Below are positions 13,152 through 35,402 of a DNA stretch of 58,522 nucleotides, piece after piece. The first letter of the stretch is position 1; every line of letters starts with the position of its first letter. Origin of the DNA: Verrucomicrobiales bacterium (lineage in GTDB: Bacteria; Verrucomicrobiota; Verrucomicrobiia; Limisphaerales; UBA9464); contig JAIYBC010000040.1 of the NCBI GenBank assembly GCA_027488845.1, positions 1-58,522 of the forward strand, read 5' to 3'. The notes below the pieces were generated by a model that did not search any database, was not told the origin of the DNA, and saw only the letters and a program-made list of their open reading frames with translations. A program made the translations under genes and the position numbers.

Positions 13152-13511
13152 CTGGGATATGGGGAAGGCGCTACCGGATACGGCCCGCGGAAGCAGAAAC
13201 AGGACCGCCACCGAGTCGAGGTTCAACGAGGCGGCACGACCTTGCACCTCCGTTTTTGCCCTAGAGTCGAACCCTCCTGATCCGCCCGCCACCCTATTCT
13301 CGCGGTTGTCTTCAGAACCTTCGATGCCGCATTGGCTTACATAGCCAGATTTCGGTTCGACCGTTGATTGGGGGACGGACGTCCGCCGCGGTCGATCCGG
13401 CCGTCGGAACGCCCCTTCCGTGTTCGAACCCCAAAGCAAGGGTGAGGCGCGAGTTCGTGCACGGCGTGGATTTCCGGGGAGTTGCGTGGGTTCTGCGCAC
13501 CGGACATCCGC
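13152..13511. other. Intergenic region upstream of the DUF1800/DUF1501 pair
   Basis: This gap of 360 bp separates two minus-strand genes. It must contain the end of the large peptidase-like gene's transcript and the promoter of the DUF1800/DUF1501 pair. The short open frames crossing it do not look coding. I see no clear hairpin terminator or sigma-70 promoter. Confidence 0.35.
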
Positions 13512-17162: not shown

Positions 17163-17309
17163 GGAACGACCGGCTTGGGTGAGGCTCGACGATTCGGCGG
17201 CGGGAGCAAGGAATCGGCGGCCGAACCGTGAGATTCTTGGAGGCGGCCGGCCCTCGGGCTTGACGTGGGAGAATGAATGCCGGACGAACTGGTTCGTCAC
17301 GCTCCCTCC

Positions 17310-18611: not shown

Positions 18612-18635
18612 AGCCCGTCCGTCCGAGCCCCAATC

Positions 18636-18680
18636 AGGCCGGATCCGTCGGCCCGCCCGCCGGATCCGGCCTTTTCCTTT
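18636..18680 (+). terminator. Rho-independent terminator after the Gfo/Idh/MocA gene
   Basis: A perfect 12-bp stem (arms 18636-18647 and 18661-18672) with a 13-nt loop is followed directly by TTTTCCTTT. It begins 24 bp after the stop codon and ends 56 bp before the next gene, so the isomerase gene likely has its own promoter or depends on read-through. Confidence 0.75.
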
Positions 18681-18735
18681 CCATTCCACACCCCCTGGTT
18701 CCGCGAATCCCGAAAACGTCCGCACGACTCCAATC

Positions 18736-19617
18736 ATGAACCGTCGATCGTTCCTGCGACTCTCCGCCACCGCTGGCGCCGCATTGCCCCTCCTCGCCCA
18801 GGACACGGCCCCCAAGCGTCGTATCCGCAAGGGCATCATGTGGGGTACGGTCGGCGTCCCGGGCTCCACCCTCGAGAAGATGCAGGCCATCAAGGAGGCC
18901 GGATTCGAGGGCGTCGAGCCGATGGGAGGCATGGACAACAAGGACGTGATTGCGGCCTTGGAAGCCACGGGCCTCAAGGCGGGGTCGGTCTGCTGCCACA
19001 CCCATTGGGCGAAGCCGCTTTCCAGTCCCAACCCCGCCGACCGCGAGGTCGGTGTGGAGGGGCTGAAGCTCTCGCTCCGCGACGCGAAGGCCTATGGCGC
19101 TCCAGCCGTGCTGCTGGTTCCGGCAGTGGTCAGCAAGGAGGTCAGCTACGCGGACGCCTACACCCGTTCGCAGACGGAAATCCGCAAGGTGATCCCGCTG
19201 GCGGAGGAACTCGGGGTGAAGATCGCCATCGAGAACGTCTGGAACAACTTCCTGCTCAGCCCGCTCGAGGCGGCCCGTTACGTCGACGAGTTCAAGTCGC
19301 CGATGGTCGGTTGGCATTTCGACGTCGGGAACATCATCCACTACGGATGGCCTGAACAGTGGGTGCGGATCCTGGGCAAGCGCATCGCCACCCTGCACAT
19401 CAAGGAGTACAACCGGGAAAAGGGCGACAAGCAGGGAAAGTGGGCTGGATTCGACGCCGGGTTCCTCACCAGCACCCCGAGCTATTGGCCGGCGGTCATG
19501 AAGGCCTTGGATGACATCGGATACCAAGGTTGGGGCATTGCCGAGCAGGGGGGCGCGGGATCGAAAGAAGGCCTGAAGAAGCTGTCGATGGAGATGGATC
19601 AGATCTTCGCGTCCTGA
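18736..19617 (+). CDS. Exported sugar phosphate isomerase/epimerase-like TIM-barrel protein
   Basis: Protein of 293 residues in the xylose isomerase-like TIM-barrel family. The N-terminus MNRRSFLRLSATAG is a twin-arginine export signal ending near LLAQ. Barrel features include GFEGVEPMGG (about 56), IAIENVWNNF (about 165, with the metal-liganding Glu), GWHFDVGNI (about 194, the Asp of the metal site) and LHIKEYN (about 220). Exported members are frequent beside Gfo/Idh/MocA oxidoreductases in this phylum and probably interconvert or cleave keto-sugars with them. Specificity is unknown. The gene ends 49 bp before a strong bidirectional terminator shared with the convergent LamG gene. Confidence 0.9.
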   Translation: MNRRSFLRLSATAGAALPLLAQDTAPKRRIRKGIMWGTVGVPGSTLEKMQAIKEAGFEGVEPMGGMDNKDVIAALEATGLKAGSVCCHTHWAKPLSSPNPADREVGVEGLKLSLRDAKAYGAPAVLLVPAVVSKEVSYADAYTRSQTEIRKVIPLAEELGVKIAIENVWNNFLLSPLEAARYVDEFKSPMVGWHFDVGNIIHYGWPEQWVRILGKRIATLHIKEYNREKGDKQGKWAGFDAGFLTSTPSYWPAVMKALDDIGYQGWGIAEQGGAGSKEGLKKLSMEMDQIFAS

Positions 19618-19732: not shown

Positions 19733-22453
19733 TCAGCGACGGACGCGATAGAACTTCCCGCCGATGGCCGGTGTGACGTCGAGGGGCGACGCGGCTCCGG
19801 CCACGTCGGAGTAGGTGCCGTTGAGGGCATCCGCTTGCTGGAGCGTGCCGCCGGACCAGACGAGCCGGGCCGAGGCGCCGTTGCGGGCGATGCTGAGCGA
19901 GATCGGCTGGGTCGCACCCGAGACGGCCGTGGTGTAGAGAGCCTGGATGCGGGCCGGGGCGAGGGCGGTATCGTAGATGGCGACCTCGTCGATGGCTCCC
20001 TTGAACAGGCCTTCCCAACCGTTGCCGGTCGAGCCGATTGCCCAGTCGCCGGTGGAGGCGGCCAAGGCGTCCGCGGTGGCCGCGGCGGAGGCGATTTCGG
20101 CTCCGTTGCGGTAGAGGCGCCAGTGGGTGCCGTCGTAGACGCCGGTCAACTGGACCCAGGCGGAGCCGGAGAGGTCGCCGTTGGTGACCTCGGCGGTGGC
20201 TCCTTCGATCACCGTGCCCTCGACGGGCTTGGTGGAGATGGTTCCGACCGTGTAGCGGGTGACGCCCTCGACCGATTCCAGGCGGAGCGAGACCTCGGTG
20301 GTGTTGGTCTGGACGGCCAGGATCTCCTCACCCTGCTCGATGCGGGCGATGAAGCCGCTCGGGGTGAGCGGTCCGCGGGAGACGATCCGGACCGGACCGG
20401 CGTCGAAGTTCAACGACCCGGGACGGACCCAGGCGCTGAGAGTGATCCGGGAGGACGGGGCGAGTCCGATCGGGCTGTTGAGGGCGGCCCAAGACTTGGC
20501 GTTCGTGAGAGACAGCGCGCGGTTGTCGGCTTCGAAGCCGGCGAAGGCCGGAGGACGCGGACCCACGGCGGAAGTGTCGCCCAGGACGGCCTGGCCTTCG
20601 GCGTTGGCTCCGAGACGGCCGGAGTTGGCCAGCGGGGTGACGGCGCGCTCGTTGAAGCGCAGGTAGGTCGCCGGTCCCTTGCGTTCCGGTCCGGTGAACG
20701 GAGCGGTCAGCACGAGGTTCTCGTAGGGCGTGGCGGAGTGGGAGTTCGTCCCGGCCTGGTAGTGGGCGAGGACCTGTTCCGGGGTCAGGAGATGGTCCCC
20801 GTAGATGGCGACCTCGTCGATCTGGCCCTCGAAGGGATTGCTGCCGAGGCCCGACTTGGCGTTGTAGGCGCCGATGCCAAGGTCCGCGGCGGCGCCGTTG
20901 TCTTCGGGGATCTCGCGGTTCGCGGCGTACAGGGCCGCGGTGTTGGTGTTGACGGGGACGCCATTCACATAGGCGGTCAGCACGCCCTGCCACTGGTTGT
21001 TGCCGTTGCCACCGGGGTCGCCGTTGTCGATCTCAGGCTTCCAGGTGAAGGCGAGGTGCTGCCATTCACCGACCTTGTAGTCGGTGTCGGTGTTGACGTC
21101 GGCACCGCTGTTGCCGGCGCCGCGGAACATGCGGAAGTTCCAGCCGTGTCCCTCGGAGGCGGGGTAGCTGAGGTTCGGATTGCGCTGGAAGATCACCCAT
21201 CCGGTCCGTCCGGTGCCGCCGACCCAGCGGTTGTTGACCGGGCATTGGCCGCCTTGGTTGTCGCGACCGGGCTTCACCCACATCTCGAAGGAGAAGGGCT
21301 TGTCGGCGCCGGGGTTGTTGAGCGCGAGGAAGGGCAGGGTGGTCGTCGAGTTGCCGTTCCGGTTGTGGTAGACCACCGACTTGTCCGAGGTGCCACCGCC
21401 GATCGCGCCGGCGCCAGGATGACGGACTTCCGCGGTGTGGGTGCCATGGCCCAAGGCACGGGTCTCGCCGAGGTTGACCGCGATGTCGGCACCGGGCGTC
21501 TCCTCGTCCAGGTGGTGGTAGGCCACCGGGTTGTGCGACCGCACGAGCGACTCGTAGGAGACCGTGCGGTTGGCGTTGGTCGCGTTCTGGTAATGCGCGA
21601 GGATCTGCTCCGCGCTGAGTCGGTTGGTGTACAGGGCGAACTCGTCGACCCCGCCGAAGTAGGGGTTGAGGCTGGTGCCCGCCGTGTTGTTGTAGTTGCC
21701 GATGGCCAAGCCGGCGGGATCGCGGTCGTGGTCGTTGGTGTTCGCGGCGTAGCCCGGGATGGTGCCGTCCGAGCCGCCCGTCCAGGTCGTCTTCGCCGCC
21801 TCCTGGCCGTCGATGTACATCGTCACCGAGGCGTCCACGACGTTGGCCGGATCATAGGCCACGACGACGTGGGTCCATTTGCCGATCTTGTAGGGCACGC
21901 GGCTGACCACATCGAGGCCTGTGGATCCGCCGGAGCCGCGGAACATGCGGAAGTTCCAGCCCACCGGTTCGCTTCCCTCGTAGGTCTCGTCCGGCTTGCG
22001 CTGGAAAAACACCCATCCCTGACGGTCGACGCCGGACCAGGCATAGCGGTTGTTGATGGGGCACTGGCCGGTGGCCGTCTGGTCACTGGCCGGATAGAAC
22101 CAGGCTTCGATCGTGAAAGGCTGGTTGGCCGCGGGATTCAGCGCGGCGTTCCAAGGGATTTCGGTCCGCGAGGTGAAGTCGAAGAATGCCGCGCGCCCGG
22201 AGTCGCCCACGATGGCGCCCGGCATCGTGTGGACGCGGCCGAGGTTCTGCGTGGCGTTGGCCGCGGCTCCAGCGGAGCCGGAATTCACGTTGACCGTGCC
22301 CTTGGCATTGGAGTCACCGAGTCGGTAATAGGCCGCAGGGGAGTCGGCGAGGACCTCGTTGGAGTAGTCCGCCGCCCGGAGAAACCCGGGGCAACCTGCG
22401 GTGGCGGCCACGGCGACAAGGGTCGCCAAGGCGCGGGAGTTTGAATGTGTCAT
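19733..22453 (-). CDS. Secreted protein with three LamG-like domains
   Basis: Exported protein of about 906 residues. A signal peptide covers about 1-28 (ending FLRA). Three concanavalin A/LamG-like jelly-roll domains follow. The first (about 40-300) and second (about 310-590) are clear duplicates: both contain QCPxNNR, GWVxFQRxP and GWNFRMFRG, and both end in a DE(F/V)A-Y block followed by QxLAHYQ. The third (about 610-850) is more divergent but also ends in IDEVAIYDTALAPARIQALY. The last about 50 residues form the verrucomicrobial C-terminal module with LVWSGGTLQQAD and a final FYRVR. Such proteins usually bind carbohydrate or adhere at the cell surface. No catalytic domain is visible. The start is the ATG just before the signal peptide; the upstream open frame lacks features. 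Confidence 0.85.
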   Translation of the reverse strand: MTHSNSRALATLVAVAATAGCPGFLRAADYSNEVLADSPAAYYRLGDSNAKGTVNVNSGSAGAAANATQNLGRVHTMPGAIVGDSGRAAFFDFTSRTEIPWNAALNPAANQPFTIEAWFYPASDQTATGQCPINNRYAWSGVDRQGWVFFQRKPDETYEGSEPVGWNFRMFRGSGGSTGLDVVSRVPYKIGKWTHVVVAYDPANVVDASVTMYIDGQEAAKTTWTGGSDGTIPGYAANTNDHDRDPAGLAIGNYNNTAGTSLNPYFGGVDEFALYTNRLSAEQILAHYQNATNANRTVSYESLVRSHNPVAYHHLDEETPGADIAVNLGETRALGHGTHTAEVRHPGAGAIGGGTSDKSVVYHNRNGNSTTTLPFLALNNPGADKPFSFEMWVKPGRDNQGGQCPVNNRWVGGTGRTGWVIFQRNPNLSYPASEGHGWNFRMFRGAGNSGADVNTDTDYKVGEWQHLAFTWKPEIDNGDPGGNGNNQWQGVLTAYVNGVPVNTNTAALYAANREIPEDNGAAADLGIGAYNAKSGLGSNPFEGQIDEVAIYGDHLLTPEQVLAHYQAGTNSHSATPYENLVLTAPFTGPERKGPATYLRFNERAVTPLANSGRLGANAEGQAVLGDTSAVGPRPPAFAGFEADNRALSLTNAKSWAALNSPIGLAPSSRITLSAWVRPGSLNFDAGPVRIVSRGPLTPSGFIARIEQGEEILAVQTNTTEVSLRLESVEGVTRYTVGTISTKPVEGTVIEGATAEVTNGDLSGSAWVQLTGVYDGTHWRLYRNGAEIASAAATADALAASTGDWAIGSTGNGWEGLFKGAIDEVAIYDTALAPARIQALYTTAVSGATQPISLSIARNGASARLVWSGGTLQQADALNGTYSDVAGAASPLDVTPAIGGKFYRVRR

Positions 22454-22695
22454 GTATATCCGGTGGTTTTGAGGAACACCTTGTGTTACGGGGGCGTTCT
22501 GGAGCGTACAAGCCGAAATCCCCGTTTGACGGAAACGTTCCGGGTTCCGCACGGATCCGTGACGTTTACGGCTGCGATTTTGAACGGTGTCCGCCACGCC
22601 ATCGGGGTCTCATTTCATTTTCGTCGACAGCCGCGCCCGATGAGACAGCTTCTTGAGGGCGCTCCAACCCGGCGCCGCAACGCAACCGAACCGCC

Positions 22696-25600
22696 ATGGC
22701 CATCCACGTCGCCCTCCGTCACGTCACCCATTACACCTACGACCAGCCGGTCGGGCATGGGCCGCACGTCGTCCGGCTTCGCCCGGCGCCGCATTGCCGG
22801 ACCCCGGTCCTGAGCTACTCCCAAAAGGTCACCGGAGGGGAGCACTTCATCAATTGGCAGCAGGACCCGTTCTCCAACTGGAACGCGCGCCTCGTGTTCC
22901 CCGAGCCCATGGCCGAGTTGAAGATCGAGGTGGAGCTCGTGGCCGAGATGGCGGTCTACAACCCGTTCGACTTCTTCCTCGAGGAGTCCGCGACCTACTT
23001 CCCGTTCCAGTACGATCCGGTCTTGGGCAAGGACCTCGCTCCGTTCATGGAGAAGTCGGCGCCGACGCCGCTGCTGAAGGCCTTCGTCGACGAGTTGAGG
23101 CGGGAAGTGCTGGGGCAACCGGAGAACGTCGGCCACGCCCCGGTTCCCGCCGCCGTCGCGCATCTGGACACCCACCATGGCGGCGGCCACCTGCCCGGAG
23201 TTCCCTCCTCCGCCAAGGCCGGATCCACGGTGGAACCGAAGCAGGTCCGCACCATCGATTTCATCGTGGCCGCCAACCAGAAGGTCCAACAGCGGATCCG
23301 TTACCTGATCCGCTTGGAACCCGGCGTGCAGGCCCCGGAGGAGACCTTGGAGAAGGCAAGCGGCTCCTGCCGCGATTCCGGTTGGCTCCTCGTCCAGGCG
23401 TTCCGGCAGATGGGACTCGCCGCTCGGTTCGTGAGCGGTTACCTGATCCAGCTCGCCCCGGACCTCAAGTCCCTGGACGGACCCAGCGGCACGGAAGTGG
23501 ATTTCACCGACCTCCACGCCTGGTGCGAGGTGTACCTGCCCGGGGCCGGTTGGATCGGCTTGGATCCCACTTCCGGCCTCCTCGCGGGGGAGGGGCACAT
23601 CCCGCTCAGCTGCACGCCGGAGCCGTCCACAGCCGCTCCGGTCACCGGGGCCATCGGCGAATGCAAGTCGACGCTGCACCACGCGATGTCGGTGACCCGC
23701 ATCCACGAATCGCCGCGTGTCACCAAGCCGTACACCGAGGAGCAATGGCAACGCATCGACGCGCTTGGCCGTGCGATCGACTCGGATCTCGTGGCCGGTG
23801 ACGTCCGGCTCACCATGGGCGGTGAGCCCACGTTCGTCTCGGTCGACGACCCGGACGGTCCCGAGTGGAACTTCACTGCGGTTTCCCACAAGAAACGGGT
23901 GCTTTCCGGCACGTTGATCAAGCGGCTGCGGTCGCGTTTCGCACCGGGATCCCTGCTGCACTACGGACAGGGGAAATGGTATCCGGGCGAACCCCTGCCG
24001 CGTTGGGCCTTGGCGGCCTACTGGCGCAAGGACGGCGTGCCGATCTGGAAGGACGACTCGCTGATCGCCGACGAGTCCCGCGACTACGGCCACGGGGCGC
24101 GGGAGGCGCTGGAACTCTCGCGCCGGTTGGCCGGGATGCTCGGCGCGGATCCGAAGTGGATCCTGCCGGGCTACGAGGACGCCTTCTACTACACGTGGAA
24201 GGAGCGCCGGTTGCCGTCGAACGTCTCGCCCGAGAAGTCGGAGCTGAAGGACAAGCAGGAACGCGAGCGTATCGCCCGCATTTTCCAGAAGGGGCTGGGC
24301 GAAGTCGTGGGCTACGCCTTGCCCTTGAAGCGGTCCTCCGGGTCGAGCGGCACGGGTTGGGTGAGTGGACCGTGGTTTCTGCGGGACGACGAGACGCTTT
24401 GGCTGATTCCCGGCGATTCGCCGATGGGATTCCGCCTGCCGCTGGATTCTATCCCGTGGGTGGCCGACAAGGAGTATCCTTGGAACTGGCCCCAGGATCC
24501 TTCCGCAACGTTGCCGCCGTTGCCCAGGGAGTTTCCCTACAGCGGTCCCGCCGCCGCGGCAGGACAGCGGTTTGTCCGGGGATCCGCCGGAGCTACCGCA
24601 CCGGGATACGGTCCTGGGCAAAGGGCCCAGCGACTCGACGGCCCGATTCCGGAACCCGAGCTTCCGCCGCTGCCCGATTCGCCCGATCCGACACGCCGGC
24701 CCAGGCTCCAGCAGAGCGCCCCGTGGATCATCCGCACCGCGTTGTGCGTGGAACCGCGGAACGGCCGCCTGCACATCTTCCTGCCGCCGGTCTCGACCAC
24801 GGAGGACTACCTCGACCTGGTCTCCGGCATCGAGAGCACCGTGTCCGCGATGGGCGTGCCGGTCATCCTCGAGGGCGAGGCCCCGCCGAAGGATCCGCGG
24901 CTCAACAAGCTGGCGGTCACGCCCGACCCCGGGGTGATCGAGGTGAACCTGCATCCGAGCCGCAGCTGGGACGAGTTGGCGGAGCGGACGACCGTGCTCT
25001 ATGAGGAGGCGCGCCAAACCCGCCTTGGAACCGAGAAGTTCATGGTCGACGGCCGGCATACCGGCACCGGCGGCGGCAACCACATCATCCTCGGCGGCGA
25101 GACCCCCGCCGATTCCCCGGTCCTGCGTCGTCCCGACCTGCTTCGGTCGCTGATCGCCTACTGGCAGAATCATCCCTCCTTGAGCTGGCTGTTCAGCGGC
25201 CTGTTCATCGGGCCGACCAGCCAGGCGCCGCGCATCGACGAAGCCCGCAACGACTCCCTGTACGAGCTCGACATCGCCTTCCGAGAGATGGACCGGCAGC
25301 TGTCCCGCGGTAACGTCCCGCCTTGGTTGGTGGACCGGCTCTTCCGGAACCTGTTGATCGATGCCAGCGGCAACACCCACCGCTCCGAGTTCAGCATCGA
25401 CAAGCTCTTCGCGCCCGAAAGCTCATCCGGACGCCTCGGCTTGGTCGAGATGCGCGCCTTCGAGATGCCACCGCACGCGCGGATGAGCCTGGCCCAGCAC
25501 CTCCTGCTGCGCGGACTCGTGTCCCGGTTCTGGCGCGAGCCCTACACCAACGGACTTGTCCGCTGGGGCACCGACATCCACGACCGTTGGATGCTTCCGC

Positions 25601-26235
25601 ACTTCTGCGAGACCGACTTCAATGATGTCCTGCGCGACCTGGGCTCCGCCGGCTATCCGTTCGAGTCCGAGTGGTTCGCCCCGCATTTCGAATTCCGCTT
25701 CCCACGGATCGGCGACTTCGCGCAACGGGACATCCAGGTGGAGATCCGCACCGCGCTTGAGCCTTGGCATGTCCTTGGCGAGGAACCCGGCGGCGGCGGC
25801 ACGGTGCGTTACGTGGACAGTTCGTTGGAGCGGGTCCAGGTGAAGGCTAAGGGATTGACTGGCGACCGGTTCGTCGTGACCTGCAACGGCCGCCGGGTTC
25901 CCCTGCATCCTACCGGGACCAACGGCGAGGGCGTTGCCGGCGTGCGGTACCGCGCCTGGCAGCCTCCGGAATGCCTCCAGCCGACCATCGGCGTCCAGAC
26001 GCCACTGGTGTTCGACCTCTTCGACACTTGGAACCGTCGCTCGATCGGCGGTTGTACCTACCACGTCGCTCATCCCGGCGGACGCAGCTACGGGACGTTC
26101 CCGGTCAACGCCTATGAGGCCGAAAGCCGTCGACTTGCCCGGTTCTTCACAACCGGGGCGAGCCAGGGTGCGTTCACGCCGCCGGCTGAAAGTGTGAACG
26201 GCGAGTTCCCGTTCACCCTCGACCTGCGCCGCTGA
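22696..26235 (+). CDS. Transglutaminase-like / DUF2126 fusion protein
   Basis: Protein of 1179 residues, no signal peptide, built from two parts. Residues 1-300 are a bacterial transglutaminase-like domain: the N-terminal beta region (HYTYDQPV...VVRLRP) leads to the cysteine-protease core with the full triad Cys225 (in GSCRDSG), His274 (in DLHAWCEVY) and Asp290 (in GLDPTSG). Between them lies a His/Gly-rich insert (HHGGGH, about 159-165). From about 360 to the end is DUF2126, opening with LTMGGEPTFVS and containing FMVDGRHTGTGGGNH and MPPHARMSLAQ. This fusion is widespread beside circularly permuted ATP-grasp and alpha-E proteins, a set proposed to make and process a peptide or amide-linked product. 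Those partners are absent here. The catalytic residues are intact; the substrate is unknown. Confidence 0.92.
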   Translation: MAIHVALRHVTHYTYDQPVGHGPHVVRLRPAPHCRTPVLSYSQKVTGGEHFINWQQDPFSNWNARLVFPEPMAELKIEVELVAEMAVYNPFDFFLEESATYFPFQYDPVLGKDLAPFMEKSAPTPLLKAFVDELRREVLGQPENVGHAPVPAAVAHLDTHHGGGHLPGVPSSAKAGSTVEPKQVRTIDFIVAANQKVQQRIRYLIRLEPGVQAPEETLEKASGSCRDSGWLLVQAFRQMGLAARFVSGYLIQLAPDLKSLDGPSGTEVDFTDLHAWCEVYLPGAGWIGLDPTSGLLAGEGHIPLSCTPEPSTAAPVTGAIGECKSTLHHAMSVTRIHESPRVTKPYTEEQWQRIDALGRAIDSDLVAGDVRLTMGGEPTFVSVDDPDGPEWNFTAVSHKKRVLSGTLIKRLRSRFAPGSLLHYGQGKWYPGEPLPRWALAAYWRKDGVPIWKDDSLIADESRDYGHGAREALELSRRLAGMLGADPKWILPGYEDAFYYTWKERRLPSNVSPEKSELKDKQERERIARIFQKGLGEVVGYALPLKRSSGSSGTGWVSGPWFLRDDETLWLIPGDSPMGFRLPLDSIPWVADKEYPWNWPQDPSATLPPLPREFPYSGPAAAAGQRFVRGSAGATAPGYGPGQRAQRLDGPIPEPELPPLPDSPDPTRRPRLQQSAPWIIRTALCVEPRNGRLHIFLPPVSTTEDYLDLVSGIESTVSAMGVPVILEGEAPPKDPRLNKLAVTPDPGVIEVNLHPSRSWDELAERTTVLYEEARQTRLGTEKFMVDGRHTGTGGGNHIILGGETPADSPVLRRPDLLRSLIAYWQNHPSLSWLFSGLFIGPTSQAPRIDEARNDSLYELDIAFREMDRQLSRGNVPPWLVDRLFRNLLIDASGNTHRSEFSIDKLFAPESSSGRLGLVEMRAFEMPPHARMSLAQHLLLRGLVSRFWREPYTNGLVRWGTDIHDRWMLPHFCETDFNDVLRDLGSAGYPFESEWFAPHFEFRFPRIGDFAQRDIQVEIRTALEPWHVLGEEPGGGGTVRYVDSSLERVQVKAKGLTGDRFVVTCNGRRVPLHPTGTNGEGVAGVRYRAWQPPECLQPTIGVQTPLVFDLFDTWNRRSIGGCTYHVAHPGGRSYGTFPVNAYEAESRRLARFFTTGASQGAFTPPAESVNGEFPFTLDLRR

Positions 26236-26263
26236 CCCAAGACCTTCCACAGCATCGTCTGAC

Positions 26264-26653
26264 ATGGCGGAATCCGTGTCCAAACCAGCTGCGTTTGAGG
26301 TTGTGCACCTCGGTGACCAGCCTTGGTACACAGCCGAAGACCTTGCGGAAGCGAGGGAGATCGCCAGTCCGCGCAATTCGCGCGCCCGCAACTTGAGCAT
26401 CGCGGACATCCGGATCCCTCCGGGTGTCGCGGTCCGGGCCCATCGTCACGAGGTGGTTGAGGAGATCTATCATGTCGTCGCCGGCACTGGCCGGATGACG
26501 GTCGCTGGATCCACGCGGGAGGTAGGTCCCGGAGACACGGTGGTGATCCTTCCGGGCGAACGACACGACATCCGGAACCTCGGCACCACGGAACTGCGGT
26601 TGTTGGTCACCTGCACGCCTCCTTGGACACCGGAATGTCTCGTGTTCGACTGA
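26264..26653 (+). CDS. Small cupin-domain protein
   Basis: Single-domain cupin of 129 residues. Cupin motif 1 is complete, with Gly54, His60, His62, Glu66 and the trailing Gly (VRAHRHEVVEEIYHVVAG). Motif 2 is complete around LPGERHDIRN, with His101 as the fourth metal ligand. It therefore probably binds Fe, Mn or Zn. Small stand-alone cupins act as sugar isomerases, dioxygenases or binding proteins, and sequence alone does not decide between these. It starts 28 bp after the transglutaminase/DUF2126 stop on the same strand and may be co-transcribed. It is the last typical high-GC gene before the low-GC stretch. Confidence 0.88.
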   Translation: MAESVSKPAAFEVVHLGDQPWYTAEDLAEAREIASPRNSRARNLSIADIRIPPGVAVRAHRHEVVEEIYHVVAGTGRMTVAGSTREVGPGDTVVILPGERHDIRNLGTTELRLLVTCTPPWTPECLVFD

Positions 26654-27425
26654 CATGCCGGTACCGGGTTGTGGCCACTGACTTGGCGGCCTGTCGAGAT
26701 TCTGGGTGTGGCTTCCCAAACCCGCCTCGACGACTCCGGGAGAACAGTTCGTCGTCGGTTTCGCACGTGATGGCTCGATGTGTCGGCCCCGCAAGTGCGG
26801 AGTAGGTCAGGGCGGAAGTGGTGTTTCTACCTCCTGATATCCAAATCCTTAGGCGAATCCTCAGCAGTTGAAATCCGCATGGCTGTGGATCAGGGCAGGA
26901 GGATGAAATCCACCTCAGGTTCCCCTCGGTTCCCTATTGAGGGAATGGCTGCTGGTCGCCATTCGAAGTCCTTCTGCCCAAGGAGCTTTCTTCGGATTTC
27001 GCTGCGCTGGAGGCGCGTCCGGTTAGCTCCGATGAGTTGCTCTGCTCGAAAGATCCTCTCCGCCGCGAGGGAAAATCCGATTCGAACCTTCATCGGAAAC
27101 GAGGGCCAAACGAGGAGTTGGCGACATTCTGATTTGGTCCGACTCCCTATCGGAACATTCCTGTGATGCAAGCGATTAGCGCGAATCAGAGGGATGGCTA
27201 GACCGGACCCTAGACGGCTTCTGTTGCTAGATTGCGAATCACTATCCATCACGGGCGTGCTTTGCCCGTGGTAGTCCATATCCAACGATTCCAGTATGGT
27301 CCATACCAACAACCAAACGATCACCAACGGCTGAGTTAACTCAGGTAGGGCTAAGCTCAGGCACCCATTGGGATGGTCGGTCCGCTGCGTCTCTTCCGTA
27401 AATCAACAATCGAACCTATACGGAT
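26654..27425. other. Long low-GC intergenic region
   Basis: This gap of 772 bp is noticeably less GC-rich than the flanking genes. The longest frame in it is a 145-codon minus-strand open frame (26890-27327), which lacks a recognisable domain, signal or ribosome binding site. I treat it as unproven and leave it uncalled. The 3' half must hold the promoter of the 1281-residue beta-helix gene, and a perfect 14-bp palindrome sits there. The region may be a remnant of older, decayed genes, which would fit a recombination boundary. Confidence 0.4.
27331..27344. promoter_or_regulatory. Perfect 14-bp palindrome, possible operator
   Basis: CTGAGTTAACTCAG is its own reverse complement. It lies 81 bp before the ATG of the beta-helix gene in an AT-richer stretch. 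A dimeric helix-turn-helix regulator could bind such a site. No regulator gene is adjacent and no second copy was noticed nearby, so this is tentative. Confidence 0.35.
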
Positions 27426-30400
27426 ATGAATCGTCCATCTAGTGCGTTCTTGCCACGCCAGATTGGCAACCTTCCTGAGTCTACGTTCGGGTCAATCCTG
27501 TTATTGATGATGACGTTGTTCTTCGGGTTGTCAGCACAAACTCATGCTTCAACCGTGCATCGCTGGTATTCGCCAACGGGAACGGGTGATGGTTCCTCAA
27601 AATCCAGTCCGACCGTGTTCGATTACAAAAAGTTTGCCACATGGACGCAATGGAGTGTTCCGGTAACCGCGACCAACATCGTTCTCCATTTCCTCCCAGG
27701 TACACACAGTAATGTTCGAATTCAGGTTGGAACCGGAAATCGGCCATATCGGAACGGAGTGGCGGACCCAGATTGGAACATCAACAAGATGAATGTCTAC
27801 ATTCAGGGTGGAAATCCTGATGCGACTTTGCCCAGCAATCCTGAAGAAACGGTTTTGGTCTTTCCGGACAATTACAACGAAGGTAGCAGCGAATCAGGTC
27901 ATGGCGGTGCCGGAATGATCAATGTGCAAGACGGTTCTCACGCCACTGGGCTGTTTACGGATGTTGGTGGTGGGAGACTTTATCAGGCACGGCGTGTTGT
28001 TGTGGAGAATCTGGTGCTCGACTGCAACTGGAGGAATCAAAAAGCGTTTACGAGCCTCGGATCGCCCAGCACCTACAAGATGTATGGCATTAACGTGATT
28101 GCCGCTACTGGACGGTTCCGAAATGTCATCGTCCGCGACCTCGGATCTCACGGCCTGATCTGCGCCTCTCAGTTTGATAGCAGAGCCGGTGTCGAAGCAT
28201 TTCCCTTGATGGCTCAAGCCGTTGACGATGGTCAAGAACCGGTTGTCGACTGCAACTCCTGCGATCTGCAGTTGATACCTTACGCCAATTATTCAGATCC
28301 GCGGCCGTGGCTGATAGAAGGCTGTGAAGTCCACGGTTTCAACAATATCTGGGGAGGATACAATACAGCGATCATGGTTAATGTGGTCACCCACGATCCA
28401 ACCCGTACGGAAGAGGCGACGTACATTAACCATCATCCCCCGGCCGCGTTTCTAAGGGATAAAGATCGGCGATTTGCATTGGTGCGAAACTGCCAAGTTC
28501 GCGGTGGTGCATATGCTTTCGGTCAGGCGGGGCCAGGCTATTGCATAGGATCTACCTTTACTGGCAATGCTGTTGTTGGTTCAACCGGCGGATACAATGC
28601 AGATACACATGCTGTGCTCTCAGGTGATATCACTAACTCGGCCATCCTGGATGTGCATGTTGGGGTTCGTCAAATTACGGATGGACACGGGGCACCCGAT
28701 TCGATCAATTATCATACTGTTGCTGGAAACCTGCTGCGGATTTCCTCGCGCGAAACCTATCGGAGGTATCAGGATTATAAGGTGATTAGTGTATTGGGTG
28801 CAACGCCTTTGACTACCTTTGTCAGTGATGCCTCACTTGTGCTTGGGTACAACTTTACCAATACGGTATCCTGCTTTCATGTCAGCGGAATTACACTTGG
28901 TCCTGTCTTTCGCGACAATTGGATCACTACTCGAGCAGTAGATGGATTCTACAAACCCAATCCTGAGGACCTCTCTTCGGCGGTTTTCCGGCCGATCTGG
29001 TGGCAAACACCGACCGAAGTCTTTCCGCCCTATGAATCGGGCTCCATTGTTCGACTCAATGCTCAGAATGTCAGCCTTTCCAACAACAGGATTTCGGCTT
29101 TGGCGGACAACTTTGTTGGTTTAGGAGACTCTCTGGGTGACGCGGTTTATTCTTCCTTCAACGATACGTCCCTACCGGCATACACGTCGAATCGATCGGC
29201 TCTGGCCGGCGATCCGGAGTTCCAGGTGGCAAGCAGGACGGAGCGGGTGGTCTTGTTCCATGATGAATCGGAATCAGTGACCTATTCTTGGAAAAAGCTT
29301 TTGCCAACTGGGACCACCACCACGGTCACGGATACACGGATAGAGCCGCGCCTGACCCGTGTTCGTGAGGTGCAGATCCAGAAACCATGGCGCTACAGTT
29401 CGGATTTCATGAAGGTTAATGTGCGGTTGGTCGATCACTGGCTGCCGTCGTCAGGTGGACCCGTTGGATCCGAGATCGTCCAGGAAGAATACGTTGCACT
29501 TCGGGTGGTTGGTCCGGGCGTAGACCAGACCCTGAGCCAGGTAACCGGAGAGGTGGCTCAATTCACCCTGCCAATCCAATCGGGGACCTCCGGCTCCTAT
29601 TCGATCACGGCTTGGTGGCTGGAACCGGGCCAAACCGACTACAGTTATCATGGCTCCTATTCGACGGCCCAGCATGTGGAAGGAACCGTCGTCACGGTCA
29701 CCGTTTCTCCGGATGTCGCCAACGACCGAAACACATCGTTTGTCGCACAACGGCCAGTTTTCACGGTGAGGCGATCTGGTCCCACTACCGAACCGCTCAC
29801 CGTCAATTTGGAACTCCCATCCTATAACGTTCCCCGCTTCAAGTCCTCGGAAGAGCTTGTCTCGCCAACGCCGGACGTCGCTGGCAGCTATGGCACTGGC
29901 ACTGGGCAGGATTATGTCCTGAAACGGGGAACGACCACGATCACACCAGGGGCGCTGCCGAACCGCGCCTTCGATGTGACGATAGCTGCTGGGGATTCGT
30001 TCACCAACCTCACGCTCTATCCCACCTACGACGATCTCACCGAGAACGAGGTGGCTTACCTGAGAGTTGCCTCTGGAACCGGCTACGCTGTCGGTCTCGA
30101 TAGTACCGCACTTGCCTTCATTTACGACGGACCCGAGTTCGTGGTTAAGGAACTCACGGATCCACTGGCTTATTATGGAACCAGTACCGCCACTGCAATC
30201 AACGGGGATGCGTCCCCGGCGATCGCAGGCAGTATCTACATCTACTCCGGGGGATACAGCGGGTATCGAGGGGGGAGATGGGCCTACCCCAACCTCCAAG
30301 GCTACTTCTGGGACATGCGATCCACCGACTATCCCGGCTATACACCGGAACCCTTGGGTGTCGCAGACACCCTTGGTGGTCAGACCTGGTTCGTGGGTAG

Positions 30401-31271
30401 CCGATGGTCCGGTTCAAAACGAGTGCCCTGGCGTGGTTGGCCGAATTCCATCACCGACCTAGGGACCCTAAAAAGCGGTGGATCCGGCGAAGCATTGGCA
30501 ATTGCCAATCACTCTGTAGATGGACGTAGAATCGTGGGTTGGTCTGAAAAGCTGTTCAATGGGAATACTTACCGACGTCCTGTAGTGTGGTTGGGTACAA
30601 ACACTACGCCTACGGATCTCGGTTCGCTAACGACCGGTGGAAATGATTGGGTTGAGGGAGCTGCACTCGCAGTGAACTCGCTCGGCAGTATCGGCGGTTG
30701 GTCTAAGAAGATGCTATTGAATCCAAATTCGCTAGCATCGCGCGGTTTTCTGATAAATAGCAATCGGAGTTCAATAGTTTATGAATCTGATATTAGGTAT
30801 CCACTTGGAGTTGGGTTAAGTCTGGAGGACGCTGCGCTTCATTCAATTGTTTACGGAATTGAAGGTGTGACAAATGTTTGTGGCGTTTCTTATGAATCTA
30901 TACCCGCTAGTGAGCGGTCAACAAACGCGGTGGTTTGGAGGGGCTCTACTATTGCCACTGCGCTTGCAAAGCCAAAGCAGCCTACCGGAACACTTGTTCA
31001 TTCGGATGCTCTTCTCTTTGCGAAACCGCAATACACAGGTGGCCACATGAGACCGGTGGGGCGAGTGTGGACGAACAACATCGCATCTGCAGTTGCTGTA
31101 GTGTGGAACAGCGATGCGGTTGCACCTTCATTGTTGAATGATCCCCACTTTACCCAGGGTTCAGGATGGATACTGAGAAAACCTCGGGGCGCAAATCCCG
31201 CCGGTTGGATAGTTGGTGAAGGGACATACAATGGAAATTCACGTGGTTTTGTAATGATTCGTCGCAACTAG
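27426..31271 (+). CDS. Giant secreted beta-helix protein with Calx-beta-like and HAF-repeat regions
   Basis: Predicted secreted protein of 1281 residues. A long N-terminus (1-23) precedes a hydrophobic signal segment (24-42, ending THAS). Residues about 60-600 look like a right-handed parallel beta-helix, with repeated short V/I-rich rungs such as VVVENLVLDCNW and FRNVIVRDLGSHGL, and an SPTG opening common in pectate-lyase-fold surface proteins. About 640-760 is an Ig-like region. About 790-910 resembles a Calx-beta module (DLTENEVAYLRV near its end). From about 1000 a series of HAF-type repeats appears (ITDLGTLKSGGSGEALAIAN, then TDLGSLTTGG and GGWS). No PEP-CTERM or catalytic motif is evident. 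GC is lower than in neighbouring genes and varies along the gene. Likely an adhesin or polysaccharide-binding surface protein; function unproven. Confidence 0.8.
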   Translation: MNRPSSAFLPRQIGNLPESTFGSILLLMMTLFFGLSAQTHASTVHRWYSPTGTGDGSSKSSPTVFDYKKFATWTQWSVPVTATNIVLHFLPGTHSNVRIQVGTGNRPYRNGVADPDWNINKMNVYIQGGNPDATLPSNPEETVLVFPDNYNEGSSESGHGGAGMINVQDGSHATGLFTDVGGGRLYQARRVVVENLVLDCNWRNQKAFTSLGSPSTYKMYGINVIAATGRFRNVIVRDLGSHGLICASQFDSRAGVEAFPLMAQAVDDGQEPVVDCNSCDLQLIPYANYSDPRPWLIEGCEVHGFNNIWGGYNTAIMVNVVTHDPTRTEEATYINHHPPAAFLRDKDRRFALVRNCQVRGGAYAFGQAGPGYCIGSTFTGNAVVGSTGGYNADTHAVLSGDITNSAILDVHVGVRQITDGHGAPDSINYHTVAGNLLRISSRETYRRYQDYKVISVLGATPLTTFVSDASLVLGYNFTNTVSCFHVSGITLGPVFRDNWITTRAVDGFYKPNPEDLSSAVFRPIWWQTPTEVFPPYESGSIVRLNAQNVSLSNNRISALADNFVGLGDSLGDAVYSSFNDTSLPAYTSNRSALAGDPEFQVASRTERVVLFHDESESVTYSWKKLLPTGTTTTVTDTRIEPRLTRVREVQIQKPWRYSSDFMKVNVRLVDHWLPSSGGPVGSEIVQEEYVALRVVGPGVDQTLSQVTGEVAQFTLPIQSGTSGSYSITAWWLEPGQTDYSYHGSYSTAQHVEGTVVTVTVSPDVANDRNTSFVAQRPVFTVRRSGPTTEPLTVNLELPSYNVPRFKSSEELVSPTPDVAGSYGTGTGQDYVLKRGTTTITPGALPNRAFDVTIAAGDSFTNLTLYPTYDDLTENEVAYLRVASGTGYAVGLDSTALAFIYDGPEFVVKELTDPLAYYGTSTATAINGDASPAIAGSIYIYSGGYSGYRGGRWAYPNLQGYFWDMRSTDYPGYTPEPLGVADTLGGQTWFVGSRWSGSKRVPWRGWPNSITDLGTLKSGGSGEALAIANHSVDGRRIVGWSEKLFNGNTYRRPVVWLGTNTTPTDLGSLTTGGNDWVEGAALAVNSLGSIGGWSKKMLLNPNSLASRGFLINSNRSSIVYESDIRYPLGVGLSLEDAALHSIVYGIEGVTNVCGVSYESIPASERSTNAVVWRGSTIATALAKPKQPTGTLVHSDALLFAKPQYTGGHMRPVGRVWTNNIASAVAVVWNSDAVAPSLLNDPHFTQGSGWILRKPRGANPAGWIVGEGTYNGNSRGFVMIRRN

Positions 31272-31280
31272 AGAAATGAT

Positions 31281-32096
31281 ATGAGAACAATAGTTTCAAT
31301 TCTTCTGTTGGGGGTGCGTCTTGTGTTGGCTCAAGATTGGCCTCAAATTCGAACAAATACTCCATTTGAAACCTTAAGAATTGGTATTCAGTTGGGTGCT
31401 CGAGTCTCTTTGGAAAGAACTGGTGTTGAGGAAAACTATAACAAATCATATTCGGTGGATCAGTATATTGGGATGAATTACAATTCGGGAAGGTGGCTTG
31501 GTATTGATGCGTCGCGTCCAACGGGATCGGTTTTTTCTGATGAGGCATTGATTGATGGTCGTAGTGTGGAAGTAGGCTTTGGAACGAGTCCGTTTCTTGG
31601 TGGTTATTTAGTTGGTGTGTCCGGATTTATCTGGGGATACGATGTTATCTTTCAACAGGTGCAGCCGGCGGTAATACCTAGTACAAGACGGTTCGACATA
31701 GCCCCTGGCCGAACCAATCTGCTTTTCGGCTTCAAGCTGTTTGAGGATGGGAACCCTGACATTGCCTATTATGGCTGGGTGGAGTTGTTGCGTGATCGGG
31801 GCGATGCGGTTTCCAAGTTCCGCTTTGGTCGGCATGCGGTGGACTACCTACCGAATCGCGGGATCCGTGCAGGGAGGGAGCCGGAACGGCCGGCCTTGGT
31901 TTCGGTGGTGACTCCCGAATCCACCACGCTCTCATGGGATCCGCTGTATGCTGCCCATGGTTTCGTCCTGGAACGCACTGGGTCCCTGACACCGCCCGTC
32001 GTTTGGGAGCCGGTCGAAACTCCGCCCGGAGCCACAAACGTTGTCATCTCCAACACGCCCTACTCGAGCGCCCTCTTCCGCCTTGCCCGACCATGA
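31281..32096 (+). CDS. Secreted protein of unknown function
   Basis: I do not recognise a family. The 271 residues begin with a signal peptide ([17 protein letters not shown]) and lack further membrane segments. The middle (about 20-190) is beta-rich and contains [13 protein letters not shown], a pattern seen in verrucomicrobial PEP-CTERM-like surface proteins. The last 70 residues (from PALVSVV) form a fibronectin-like module ending FRLARP, a common C-terminal tail in this phylum. The gene starts 9 bp after the beta-helix gene, and its stop overlaps the ATG of the pseudopilin-like gene (ATGA), so the three look like one operon. Composition changes sharply inside it: a counted 60-base line in the first half is 40% GC and one in the second half is 67%. 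Confidence 0.7.
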
Positions 32097-32950
32097 AGCG
32101 GTTGGACAGTCGAAGGGCCTTCACCCTCATCGAACTGCTGGTGGTGGTGGCCATCATTGGCGTACTTGCTGCGCTCCTGTTGCCGGCCCTCGGCCGGGCG
32201 CGGGCCAGCGCCCAGACCACGGTTTGTGTCGGCAACCAACGCCAGCTCAACCTCGCTTGGCGGCTCTACACCGAGGACAACCGGAGTTTTTTCCCATGGT
32301 CGACGACGCTCAATTTCTTTGACGACGCGTTGCCCGCCGTCGAGCTACAGCCCGCTTGGTGCCGCGGTTCGATGAGCTACATCGGTGTTCGGCCTGCTGA
32401 GGAGCGCACCAATATCGACCTCATCCTCGGTCCGTGGCCGGGAAGCATCGGTGCCTATAGCCGTGTGGCCGGAATCTACAGGTGTCCTTCGGATCTCAGC
32501 CGATGGCGGCCCGAGCGAACCCGGGAACGTATCCTGCGGGTTCGGAGCTACTCCATGAACCGAAACTTCGGTTTTCCGGAGTCCCGGGTGTTTCAATTGA
32601 GCGTCTTCAACAAGGACGCGGACCTACGCCGTCACGCCGCGGGCCCGTCAGGGCTGTCGGTGTTCTGGGATGAATCGGAAGCGACGTTGGCCGGCACCGA
32701 CTTCGGTGATCCGACCCTTCATTTCGGCGAATGGGTGTTGGGCGCCTTGCCCTCCACACGCCATCGGAACGCCGGATCGGTCTCCTTCGCCGACGGGCAT
32801 GTCGAGGTTCACCGTTGGAGTGATCCGAACCTGCTCGCCAACAGTCGAAGACTCGACCTCAACATGGGCATTTCGACCGCGCCCGGGAGTCCTGATTTCC
32901 GCTGGATCGAGGCCGCGATGCGGACCCTGGGCCCCGGCACGACCGACTGA
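32093..32950 (+). CDS. Pseudopilin-like protein (prepilin N-terminus, ADGH-type C-terminus)
   Basis: Protein of 285 residues with a textbook type IV prepilin N-terminus: a short basic leader (MKRLDSRRA), then [24 protein letters not shown], with the cleavage site before Phe and Glu at mature position 5. Behind the helix is a globular domain ending with an [18 protein letters not shown] motif, the H-X9-DG type C-terminus very common in planctomycete and verrucomicrobial DUF1559-like proteins. Such proteins are thought to be surface or periplasmic fibres, or parts of a type II-like secretion apparatus; no assembly genes are nearby. The start codon overlaps the preceding stop by 4 bp, implying translational coupling. 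Confidence 0.87.
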
Positions 32951-33123
32951 GGTGAAGTCTGTCGTGCAAGCGTCCCTCTCCCGTGCATGAAGCCGGAGCC
33001 CGGTCCGCTTCCCAGCTGTTTGAAGCTTCGTCGGGAAAGGCACTTGGGCCGGTCGCTGGGACCTGGATGTGAAGCCCTGGATCCCCGGGGCATCGGTGGC
33101 TCAAGCGACTGGGACAAACTGCA

Positions 33124-35223
33124 TCAGGAGGGCAGGGCGCTGCGTAGGAAGTCGCGGACCACCGCGCCATCCCGAGTCGGGGGTTGACAGGCGTTGCCGG
33201 TGCAAGGGTAGGCGAGGGAAAACTCCTCGTTCTCCGGAAGGGTCCGGGCGAACGGATCCACCGGCCCGCGGTTGCCCAGAACAACGCGGTTGGGCTCGTG
33301 GACCGCGTGAACGTGGCCCAGCAGTGCGCGTGTCGAGCCGCAAAGCGGGTCGCCGACGATGACGACCCGTTTCGGTTCCTGGAGGGAAAAGTCGAGCGCC
33401 GCCAGCAGGTGGGGAACTCCCTGGGGATGTTGATGCAGCTTCTGGGCGAACAGCCGGAGAGTCCTTTCCGCGGCTTCCCTCCATTCGGGCCGTCCGCAGA
33501 TCGCCGCGAGCCGGAGAAGCGCGAGACAGGCGACCGAATTCCCCGAGGGTTCGGCCCCGTCGTAGTCCTCCTTCCATCGGACCAGCAGGTGAGGCGTGTC
33601 GGACGAACTCTGCCAAAAGCCTCCGGCGACAGGGTCATGGAACCGCGCCATGAGGCCCTCGGCCAGATCCACGGCGAACCGAAGCATCTCCGGATCGAGC
33701 GTGGCTTCGTAGAGTTCGATCGTGCCGGTGAGCACATGGGCGTAGGCGTCGAGGAGCTGGACCTGATCCCGTTCTCCTTCCCGCCAACGGTGGAACAGCG
33801 TTCCCGGTCGACCCGCGGACGGTTCCACCCACAGGGCCCGTTTCAGGAAGGCCAGGTTCCGAAGGGCCATCTCCAGGAACTCCTCGTCGCCGAGGACGGC
33901 GTAGGCGCGTGCGCAGGCGCCAAGCATCATCCCATTCCAGGAGGCAAGGACCTTGTCGTCCCGGAGCGGACGCACCCTCAGCGCGCGGGCCTCTCGCATC
34001 TTGGCTGTCGCGGATTCCAGCAGCGGGATGTCGGTCTCGGGGAGCTCGGGTTCGACGATGGCCAGGACGTTCAGGCCAGGCAGGGGCTCGGGGTGGCTGT
34101 GGTCGATGAAGTTGCCCTCGCGGGTCACACCGAAATAACGCGTGGCGACGTTGAACTCCTCCGGGGTCAACAACGCGGAAAGCTCGGCGTGGGTCCAGCA
34201 GTAGAAGGTGCCTTCGCGGCCTTCGGAATCGGCGTCTTCCGCGGAACAGAAGCCGCCCTCCGGAAGCGTCATCTCCCGCGCGACGTAGCGCAGGATGTCC
34301 CTCGCCACCGCGGCATGGGTTTCCACGCGCGAGACGAGATACGCCTCGAGGTAGAGCGAAACCAGCTGGGCGTTGTCGTACAGCATCTTCTCGAAGTGCG
34401 GCACGCGCCAGGCTTCGTCCACGCCGTAGCGGGCGAAGCCGCCGCCGAGGTGGTCGTAGATGCCGCCTGCCGCCATCCGATCACAGGTGTGCAGTACGGC
34501 CTGCACGCCCTCGGCGTCGCCAAACCGACGGGAATAGCGCAACAGGAACAGCGGCTGCGTGGGGCGCGGGAACTTCGGGGCGCCACCGAATCCTCCATGA
34601 ACCGGGTCGAATTCGGAGAGAAGTGATTGTCCACCGCCATGGAGTTCGCGGGGACCGGTGGGAAACGCGTTGTCAGGATCCTGATGGGCGAGTTCCGCCA
34701 GCTTCGTGGCGAGGTCCGCGGCGGAGCCGAGGAGGTCCTCGCGTCGGGTGGTCCAGAGTTCGACGACCCTTTCCAGGAGGGCGCGGAACCCGGGGCGATT
34801 GTGACGGGCTTCCGGCGGGAAATAGGTGCCGCCGTAGAAGGGCTTGAGGTCCGGGGTCAGGAAGACGTTGAGCGGCCAACCGCCGGTGCCCGAGGTCATC
34901 TGGACGAACGACATGTAGATCTTGTCGATGTCCGGGCGCTCCTCGCGGTCCACTTTGATGCAGACGAAATGCTCGCGCAGGTAGTCGCCGATCGAGGCGC
35001 TGGCAAAGGACTCACGTTCCATGACGTGGCACCAATGGCAGGTGGAGTAGCCGATGCTGAGAAGGATGGGCTTGCCGGAGGAACTGGCAGCCGCAAAGGC
35101 CTCGTCGCCCCAAGGGAACCAATCGACGGGATTGTGGGCGTGCTGCTGGAGATAGGGCGACTTCTCGACGGCGAGGCGATTGGTTGGTGAATGGCCTTTC
35201 GGGCTGTCGGCGGTGTTGCTCAC
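33124..35223 (-). CDS. YyaL-type thioredoxin-domain / glycoside-hydrolase-like protein (DUF255)
   Basis: Large cytoplasmic protein of about 699 residues. The N-terminal thioredoxin-like domain opens with [21 protein letters not shown] and has the CHWCH redox motif (Cys62 and Cys65 with this start). The rest is an (alpha/alpha)6-barrel like those of N-acylglucosamine 2-epimerases and unsaturated glucuronyl hydrolases, with [23 protein letters not shown] and [12 protein letters not shown] blocks. Its function is not settled (human SSP411/SPATA20 family). The start is uncertain: the frame runs back through the tRNA-Gly gene. The only ATG after the tRNA (35301) lies inside the tRNA's terminator hairpin without a ribosome site, so I prefer the GTG at 35223, still without a strong Shine-Dalgarno. 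Confidence 0.85.
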
Positions 35224-35283
35224 GTCGATCGAAGTTACGGGGTCGCCCGGGGCGAACAAGACCAACGGCGGCAGGGACCGGTG

Positions 35284-35320
35284 GAAAACAAAAACCGCCA
35301 TCCGAAAGGACGGCGGTTTT
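35284..35320 (-). terminator. Rho-independent terminator of tRNA-Gly
   Basis: On the minus strand a 13-bp stem with one G-T pair (arms 35308-35320 and 35291-35303, TTTC loop) is followed by TGTTTT. It starts 6 bp after the tRNA 3' CCA. Its second arm contains an in-frame ATG of the YyaL gene, which argues against that codon as the true start. Confidence 0.88.
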
Positions 35321-35325
35321 AAAAC

Positions 35326-35402
35326 TGGAGCGAGTGAAGGGATTCGAACCCTCGACATTCACCTTGGCAAGGTGACGCTCTACCAGACTGAGCTACACTC
35401 GC
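35326..35402 (-). tRNA. tRNA-Gly (GCC)
   Basis: A 77-nt tRNA including an encoded 3' CCA. The acceptor stem pairs GCGAGTG with CACTCGC. The D-arm contains TAGCTCAGTCTGGTAGAGC, and the anticodon stem CACCT/AGGTG holds the loop TTGCCAA with anticodon GCC. The T-arm has the invariant GGTTCGAATCC. Anticodon GCC reads GGC and GGU glycine codons, which dominate in this GC-rich genome. It has its own promoter-like sequence upstream and terminator downstream. Confidence 0.97.

Follow-up and report, generated by a model that had tools for sequence, protein, structure and literature searches.

Introduction

Diversity-generating retroelements give rise to localized hypervariability in a protein-coding gene. 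Orphan modules of contact-dependent growth inhibition (CDI) systems are described as 5′-truncated 3′ fragments of a large gene, each followed by an open small gene and arranged in tandem (PMC3150448). A study of the Vibrio cholerae type VI secretion system (T6SS) describes arrays of retained small genes behind displaced large genes, for which its authors propose homologous exchange together with homology-facilitated illegitimate insertion (PMC5361080). Here, we analyze a low-GC island, first marked at 26654-32950, on the 58,522-nt contig JAIYBC010000040.1 of assembly GCA_027488845.1 (the window), from a member of the Verrucomicrobiota known from metagenomes. The island appears to be one copy of a three-gene module found in several genera of a single GTDB family, comprising genes for a large, apparently secreted protein (g1), a smaller one (g2) and a pseudopilin (g3).

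We regard it as fairly probable that this is a mobile, non-autonomous secretion or surface module with a recombining cassette, evolving in the manner of the effector-immunity arrays of CDI, Rhs and T6SS loci. By analogy, the module resembles CDI and T6SS arrays in how it evolves. As in the CDI/Rhs orphans, there are orphan units, a variable segment that runs from the end of the large gene into the small gene, and conserved anchors (PMC3150448). In contrast, the variable segments here stay homologous, the small gene is chimeric, combining a constant C-terminal half with a start that resembles a signal peptide, and the last gene of the operon encodes a pseudopilin. Unlike in the T6SS arrays, no T6SS part and no known toxin were found in the module, and the illegitimate joint lies in the start of the downstream pilin. 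Localized hypervariability is shared with diversity-generating retroelements; however, the block here exceeds 1 kb, all four bases vary and indels occur. We do not claim membership in CDI or T6SS, given that searches for toxin or immunity domains found none and that the C-terminal part of g1 shows no specific co-variation with the N-terminal half of g2.

Three genes in an inserted segment

We compared the window's own genome (G000) with 18 other genomes of its GTDB genus, among them G013, G012 and G005. In G005, contig C167 matches the window by blastn at 22531-26653 (88%) and 33143-33684 (86%), with nothing between. All three genes occur in the same order and place in two of the 18 congeners, with identities to the window of 89, 72 and 98% for g1, g2 and g3 in G013, and 88, 69 and 96% in G012. 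The YyaL locus of 14 congeners (G005 and 13 others) lacks g1, g2 and g3 in the stretch examined, which extends 0.4 to 8.2 kb past the YyaL 3′ end in the 13 besides G005. Given the empty site in G005 and the synteny in G013 and G012, about 6.5 kb was inserted in an ancestor shared by G000, G013 and G012, which already had the cupin gene at this place. The insertion, the architecture shared within the family and the divergence of the cassette between species with near-identical flanks can all be read from the sequence comparisons.

These results alter an earlier account. The first-pass annotation, made from the letters of the window, had proposed a recombined or transferred locus with a native 3′ end. 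The empty site in G005 agrees with transfer, and the change in GC coincides with a sharp identity border; synteny in G013 and G012 speaks against a recent event in this strain. The native 3′ end does not hold: the empty site lacks both g3 and the GC-normal half of g2, which are thus part of the insert. The left start at 26654 stands, whereas the insert ends near 33142 rather than at 32950. Syntenic orthologues of all three genes had been named as evidence against that account, and for the locus as a whole they exist in G013 and G012. The packing of the genes is as first described, with a 9-bp gap between g1 and g2 (31271/31281) and a 4-bp ATGA overlap between g2 and g3 (32093-32096).

The low GC and deviant composition first noticed by eye were confirmed. 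One-kilobase windows starting from 26501 to 31501 have a GC content of 0.466-0.589 and tetranucleotide distances of 0.38-0.78, compared with 0.669 (sd 0.028) and 0.30 (sd 0.04, maximum 0.51) in 229 one-kilobase control windows outside the island, drawn from five stretches of the G000 genome. Hand counts on the 60-base lines at 30721, 31441, 29401 and 31861 proved exact (0.40, 0.40, 0.55 and 0.67). Only one of the 229 controls falls below 0.56, and it is the start of contig G000:C28, where an orphan copy of the module lies. At third codon positions, GC (GC3) is 0.54 in g1, 0.50 in g2 and 0.76 in g3; the transglutaminase gene upstream has 0.86 and the cupin gene 0.72.

A hypervariable cassette with sharp borders

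A cassette spanning the end of g1 and the start of g2 (Table 1) is highly divergent between species. Its identity is 0.631 for G000-G013, 0.609 for G000-G012 and 0.712 for G013-G012. For the same three pairs, the insert to its left is 0.945, 0.917 and 0.933 identical, the insert to its right 0.966, 0.935 and 0.942, and the flanks outside the insert 0.935-0.967. Between G000 and G013, 182 control windows of 200 bp, over 37.9 kb, have a mean identity of 0.944 (sd 0.054); the seven windows from 30401 to 31601 give 0.83, 0.59, 0.57, 0.70, 0.70, 0.56 and 0.84. Silent sites inside the cassette are near saturation: between these two genomes, fourfold sites agree at 32 of 88 in g1 columns 1051-1286, compared with 205 of 238 in columns 601-1000 and 69 of 74 in g2 columns 151-271.

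The left border varies by pair. By eye in the alignment, G013 equals G012 to about column 1134, whereas G000 departs near 1040. Because the left borders differ between pairs, the end of g1 and the start of g2 look like a mosaic of exchanged alleles. On the right, the change-point falls at g2 residue 139-143 in three species pairs. The alleles themselves are 41-53% identical in amino acids over the N-terminal half of g2 among the three species, and 50-61% in the lowest g1 bins of G000-G013. In g1 codons 1040-1281, G000 and G013 differ at 69 of 177 A, 64 of 153 C, 59 of 200 G and 83 of 193 T. Retroelement-type mutagenesis was rejected, since substitution is not adenine-specific. A second, minor patch of exchange appears further upstream in g1: in the 200-bp window at 29001, G000 is 0.81 and 0.80 identical to G013 and G012, which are 0.97 identical to each other, and 12 of 27 fourfold sites agree in columns 501-550.

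The break recurs across the family

Homologues of g2 share one layout: after a signal-peptide-like start comes a variable N-terminal half, followed by a conserved C-terminal half. The change of GC inside the 271-residue gene, claimed in the first-pass annotation, is borne out in the window: GC3 is 0.36 before residue 144 and 0.67 after it, and overall GC is 0.44 in the variable half and 0.61 in the conserved half. All 22 of the 22 homologues having both halves, from five genera of the family, have less GC in the N-terminal than in the C-terminal half (four rows were dropped, two as fragments and two with a misplaced start). A second set, sharing some members with the first and taking in two of the rows dropped from it, has a fixed 125-codon N-terminal part that is AT-richer in 14 of 14 cases from three genera, the smallest difference being 0.61 versus 0.62. 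In g1, GC3 of the 250 codons before the tail is below that of the preceding 250 in 10 of 10 homologues, sometimes slightly (0.57 versus 0.59). Since the same split occurs at the same place in every one of the 22, a single foreign GC-poor donor is not supported as the reason for the break inside g2. Low GC would rather be a property of the variable segments across the family than the signature of one recent donor.

Identity breaks at the same place. Among g2 pairs with a conserved-half identity of at least 0.85, fourfold identity is lower in the N-terminal half in 11 of 11; the mildest is the second copy on G027:C207 against C300 (43 of 58 versus 57 of 68 sites). A single change-point was fitted for 9 of 14 pairs, and in 9 of 9, from four genera, it falls −8 to +12 residues from where the conserved half begins. 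The pairs in both comparisons are not independent, and the profile of the conserved half was seeded from residue 141 of the window family.

At E ≤ 1e-20, g2 is matched in 13 of 50 genomes of the GTDB family, its own included. A phylum sample of 288 genomes, with eight candidates scored per genome, contains 13 with matches at E ≤ 1e-6, and the only strong ones are in the window's own genome. The 12 others have weak matches (best E 1.0e-10), mostly to one part of the model; one match is near full length (G325:C55, model positions 35-265, E 2.4e-9).

Orphan units and tandem arrays

Orphan units, in which an open g2 stands behind a 3′ remnant of g1, occur at G000:C45/C28, G005:C96, G025:C232 (second copy), G024:C43 and G024:C72, as in CDI/Rhs orphans. 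In G000, the end of C45 and the start of C28, which share 99 bp, read together as g1 tail remnant, g2A, g1 tail remnant, g2B and pilin. We take the two contigs to be adjacent because G013:C365 and G012:C103 have their flanks (C45 up to 17401, C28 from about 2204 on) side by side with nothing between. These are empty sites, in which tblastn found no g2 or pilin remains, and G005:C85 is likewise empty at this place. The related single unit on G005:C96 has flanks that do not match it. The array (C28 about 2206 / C45 about 17401) lies directly before a hairpin that by eye resembles an intrinsic terminator, and the empty sites of G013, G012 and G005 have this hairpin too.

The joints within arrays share a design. 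On C28, the end of g2A continues into the first ~8 pilin codons (60 bp, 100% identical to the intact pilin start), followed by the g1 tail. On G025:C232, which belongs to a different genus, the g2 end and pilin start run on for 220 bp (96%) before a g1 tail identical at 21 of 21 bp to the intact g1 end. No such joint was seen in the third tandem pair, on G027:C207. The two joints, which appear to be independent events inside the pilin start, point to insertion of units of g1 tail and g2, one side homologous and the other not.

The g1-tail frame is short and g2 open at G024:C43, G024:C72, G359:C140 and G019:C13. In addition, an N-terminal piece is joined to the tail at G024:C43, and the pilin frame is broken at G024:C72. 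On G025:C285 (5539-7419), a sequence for an AraC-type helix-turn-helix (HTH) and a truncated C-terminal part of g1 share one open frame. A further locus holds g1 (C933) and a pilin (C378) in G005, a pilin only (C18) in G013, and a 5′-deleted pilin (C36) in G000; modules thus seem to come and go at several places. G019:C13 and G019:C27 both begin with the same g2 end and pilin positions, and the g2 at the far end of C13 has the same last residues as the one at the start of that contig, as in a tandem module array.

Products of the three genes

The g1 of the window has no match in Pfam or NCBIfam, and a sequence search of the Protein Data Bank returned 0 sequences at E up to 1. Among 13 g1 homologues scanned (E up to 0.1), 7 match HAF_rpt (TIGR02913), a model without assigned function that the window g1 does not match; DUF3466 matches 4 and an AraC-type HTH matches 1. 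The other NCBIfam matches are each to one member: TIGR03442 and delta_60_rpt (E 0.0049-0.041), the rest being AraC-family regulators. The HAF repeats suggest that g1 may end in an extracellular, propeller-like part. The g1 of G012 (C156) carries a single in-frame TGA and is otherwise open over 1285 codons.

In g2, the conserved half carries a YGW...AG..P motif and, by eye, an Fn3-like end. The window g2 has no Pfam or NCBIfam family, and FG-GAP models match 1 of 18 homologues each. Structures predicted with AlphaFold from three-sequence alignments had a mean predicted local distance difference test score of 29.2 for g2 and 28.4 for g1 residues 905-1281.

Like the pseudopilins of type II secretion and type IV pili, g3 has an N-terminal cleavage and methylation motif, scoring above the curated cut-offs of PF07963 (31.4 versus 21.2 bits) and TIGR02532 (30.0 versus 16.3). 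Unlike them, it is one of a large paralogous set and is linked to two cargo-like genes. G000 contains 83 first-look paralogue candidates, and 41 of the 41 scored match. Assignment to DUF1559 / SBP_bac_10 was rejected at 12.0 bits against a cut-off of 23.3. The g3 start is most likely at 32093 (285 aa); the 338-aa open reading frame (ORF) from 31934 is merely the longest. Another pilin-like ORF of the window, at 40679-41476 (−), matches the g3 profile.

Weighing the explanations

The island, or its AT-rich parts, could have come recently from a low-GC organism, with the GC-rich 3′ part native. The strong deviation in GC and tetranucleotides and the insertion relative to G005 fit this reading. 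Nevertheless, strong g2 matches in the phylum sample are confined to the window's own genome, the family members tested show the same GC split, and g3 is missing from the empty site; we consider it very improbable. It is also improbable that no exchange took place and that the block is fast-evolving, weakly constrained sequence or a target of local hypermutation. Windows elsewhere on the contig do drop in identity, with 8 of the 182 controls below 0.85 and the three at 13201-13800 at 0.65-0.70. However, a few codons suffice for silent sites to pass from near saturation to roughly 90% identity, G013 equals G012 but not G000 in part of the block, where the borders vary with the pair, and the reading frames are open throughout it while all four bases change. 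A polymorphic pair akin to effector and immunity protein is possible though doubtful. In such a pair, the C-terminal part of g1 would serve in antagonism or signalling, with g2 as the partner or immunity protein cognate to it, and orphan g2 arrays would be immunity genes retained after their effectors were displaced. An open g2 behind only a 3′ remnant of g1 is the architecture described for CDI orphans (PMC3150448), and the layout is similar to Vibrio T6SS immunity arrays (PMC5361080). Yet the alleles, at the identities given above, are still homologous and not unrelated toxin domains, and g2 has a constant half as well as a start that resembles a signal peptide. Neither g1 and g2 of the window nor the homologues scanned matched a toxin or immunity family, and no CdiB, Rhs or VENN part was seen in the module, although no search was aimed at these. 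Furthermore, with the triad pairs left out, distances of the g1 C-terminal part track those of the g2 C-terminal half (r 0.77) and the pilin (r 0.85) better than those of the g2 N-terminal half (r 0.46); with all pairs, the values are 0.87, 0.91 and 0.72. This test of co-evolution is weak because distances in the g2 N-terminal half are near saturation.

Several observations weigh against a mobile module with a recombining cassette, the reading that we favor. The same 8 control windows below 0.85 count here, one of them being the minor patch at 29001. The genomes searched yielded no donor allele, nor did protein searches of G000 show one, and we therefore infer exchange from saturation and from the borders. 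The distances, over 15 modules, show no matched-pair evolution of the g1 C-terminal part with the g2 N-terminal half. The second copy on G027:C207 has hardly any break against C300 (0.83 in the N-terminal and 0.92 in the C-terminal half), one change-point, G024:C31/C57, is weak (0.55 to 0.74), and the in-frame TGA of the G012 g1 sits upstream of the hypervariable block. As for mobility, none of five flanking proteins scanned is a recombinase or integrase, 26200-33300 holds short imperfect repeats only, and the edges of the two insertions compared share no motif. Surface exposure of g1 and g2 and the role of the pilin are putative. Finally, many of the genomes, G013 and G012 included, are metagenome assemblies in which alleles could be mixed within one bin; counter to this, both frames are open in G000 and G013, and those of G012 are open through the block.

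Proposed mechanism and significance

Under the favored reading, homologous recombination with DNA of other strains would replace the cassette, anchored in the conserved upstream part of g1 on one side and in the conserved g2 half or the pilin on the other. Occasionally, one end would be joined illegitimately inside the pilin start, yielding a second unit of g1 tail and g2 in tandem, in which g1 would then decay while g2 stays open. As the likeliest function, judged from sequence features, the neighboring pseudopilin would assist the export of g1 and g2, and both would act at the cell surface. Their variable halves would be exposed to recognition by phage, predator, competitor or kin, so that new alleles are favored. 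More speculatively, and in our view unlikely, the module may be an undescribed polymorphic recognition system of two secreted partners and a dedicated pseudopilin, its cassette exchanged between species and its orphan partners accumulating as in immunity arrays; g2 would then represent a new kind of recognition or immunity protein, secreted and constant in one half. The module is described by no title among the matches listed for literature on Verrucomicrobia prepilins, HAF repeats, DUF1559 pseudopilins, pseudopilin expansion, surface hypervariability and orphan toxins.

What began as a vague low-GC island is thus defined as a module that recurs and has borders open to testing, in a phylum that has been studied little. 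It is an example of arrays of large-gene remnants and small genes whose two products both look secreted and among which no known toxin was found. Should the variable halves prove to be recognition surfaces, their alleles would let one ask what drives surface-protein diversity in uncultured Verrucomicrobiota, and they would also offer a route to the role of the many pseudopilin copies beside secreted proteins.

Flanking genes and other features

Table 1. Coordinates of the module, its parts and its neighbors in the window.
Feature	Position	Strand	Description
Cupin gene (left flank)	26264..26653	+	PF07883 E 3.9e-16; also in G005
Inserted segment, ~6.49 kb	26654..33142		Inserted between cupin stop and 3′ end of convergent YyaL/DUF255 gene; 41 bp in G005
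Low-GC non-coding leader	26654..27425		GC 0.556; 200-bp windows 0.91-0.98 identical to G013/G012
g1, 1281 aa	27426..31271	+	By eye: N-terminal hydrophobic signal, beta-helix-like N-terminal half, Calx-beta-like middle, HAF-repeat-like C-terminal part
Minor exchange patch in g1	28938..29195	+	Codons ~505-590, borders by eye; G000 differs, G013 = G012
Hypervariable cassette, ~1.17 kb	30540..31707	+	Last ~240 g1 codons, 9-bp gap, first ~142 g2 codons
Conserved g1 tail	31134..31265	+	Last ~44 codons; profile search; remnant upstream of orphan g2 copies
g2, 271 aa	31281..32096	+	Signal-peptide-like start (by eye), variable N-terminal half, conserved C-terminal half
g3, pseudopilin-like, 285 aa	32093..32950	+	PF07963 N_methyl E 1.3e-7; TIGR02532 E 2.9e-7
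YyaL-like gene (right flank)	33124..35358	−	Thioredox_DsbH, DUF255

The cupin gene is matched in 4 and the YyaL-like gene in 18 of the 19 genus genomes, own included in both counts. At YyaL, 5 of the 14 congeners have a transglutaminase gene directly adjoining, G005 has the cupin gene between, and in the other 8 no transglutaminase match was found within the stretch. A tRNA-Gly (gcc) at 35326-35402 (−) lies 2.2 kb beyond the right edge and so not at a boundary. The repeats in 26200-33300 fall into three direct and five inverted families (16-24 nt), and no family links one edge of the insert to the other. With no integrase among the five flanking proteins scanned, and no terminal repeats or border tRNA found, an integrative element or tRNA-anchored island is not supported.

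The tRNA-Gly overlaps the listed 5′ end of the YyaL ORF, so the true start of that gene is probably further downstream. Elsewhere on the contig, 12201-12600, 14201-14400 and 22401-22600 are 0.74-0.84 identical to G013 in surroundings of ~94%, and 13201-13800 lies at the junction of two long minus-strand ORFs (13512-19031 and 10596-13439). The record CAMASJ010000156.1, titled Akkermansia muciniphila, is syntenic with the window's genus and is probably a mislabelled metagenome-assembled genome.

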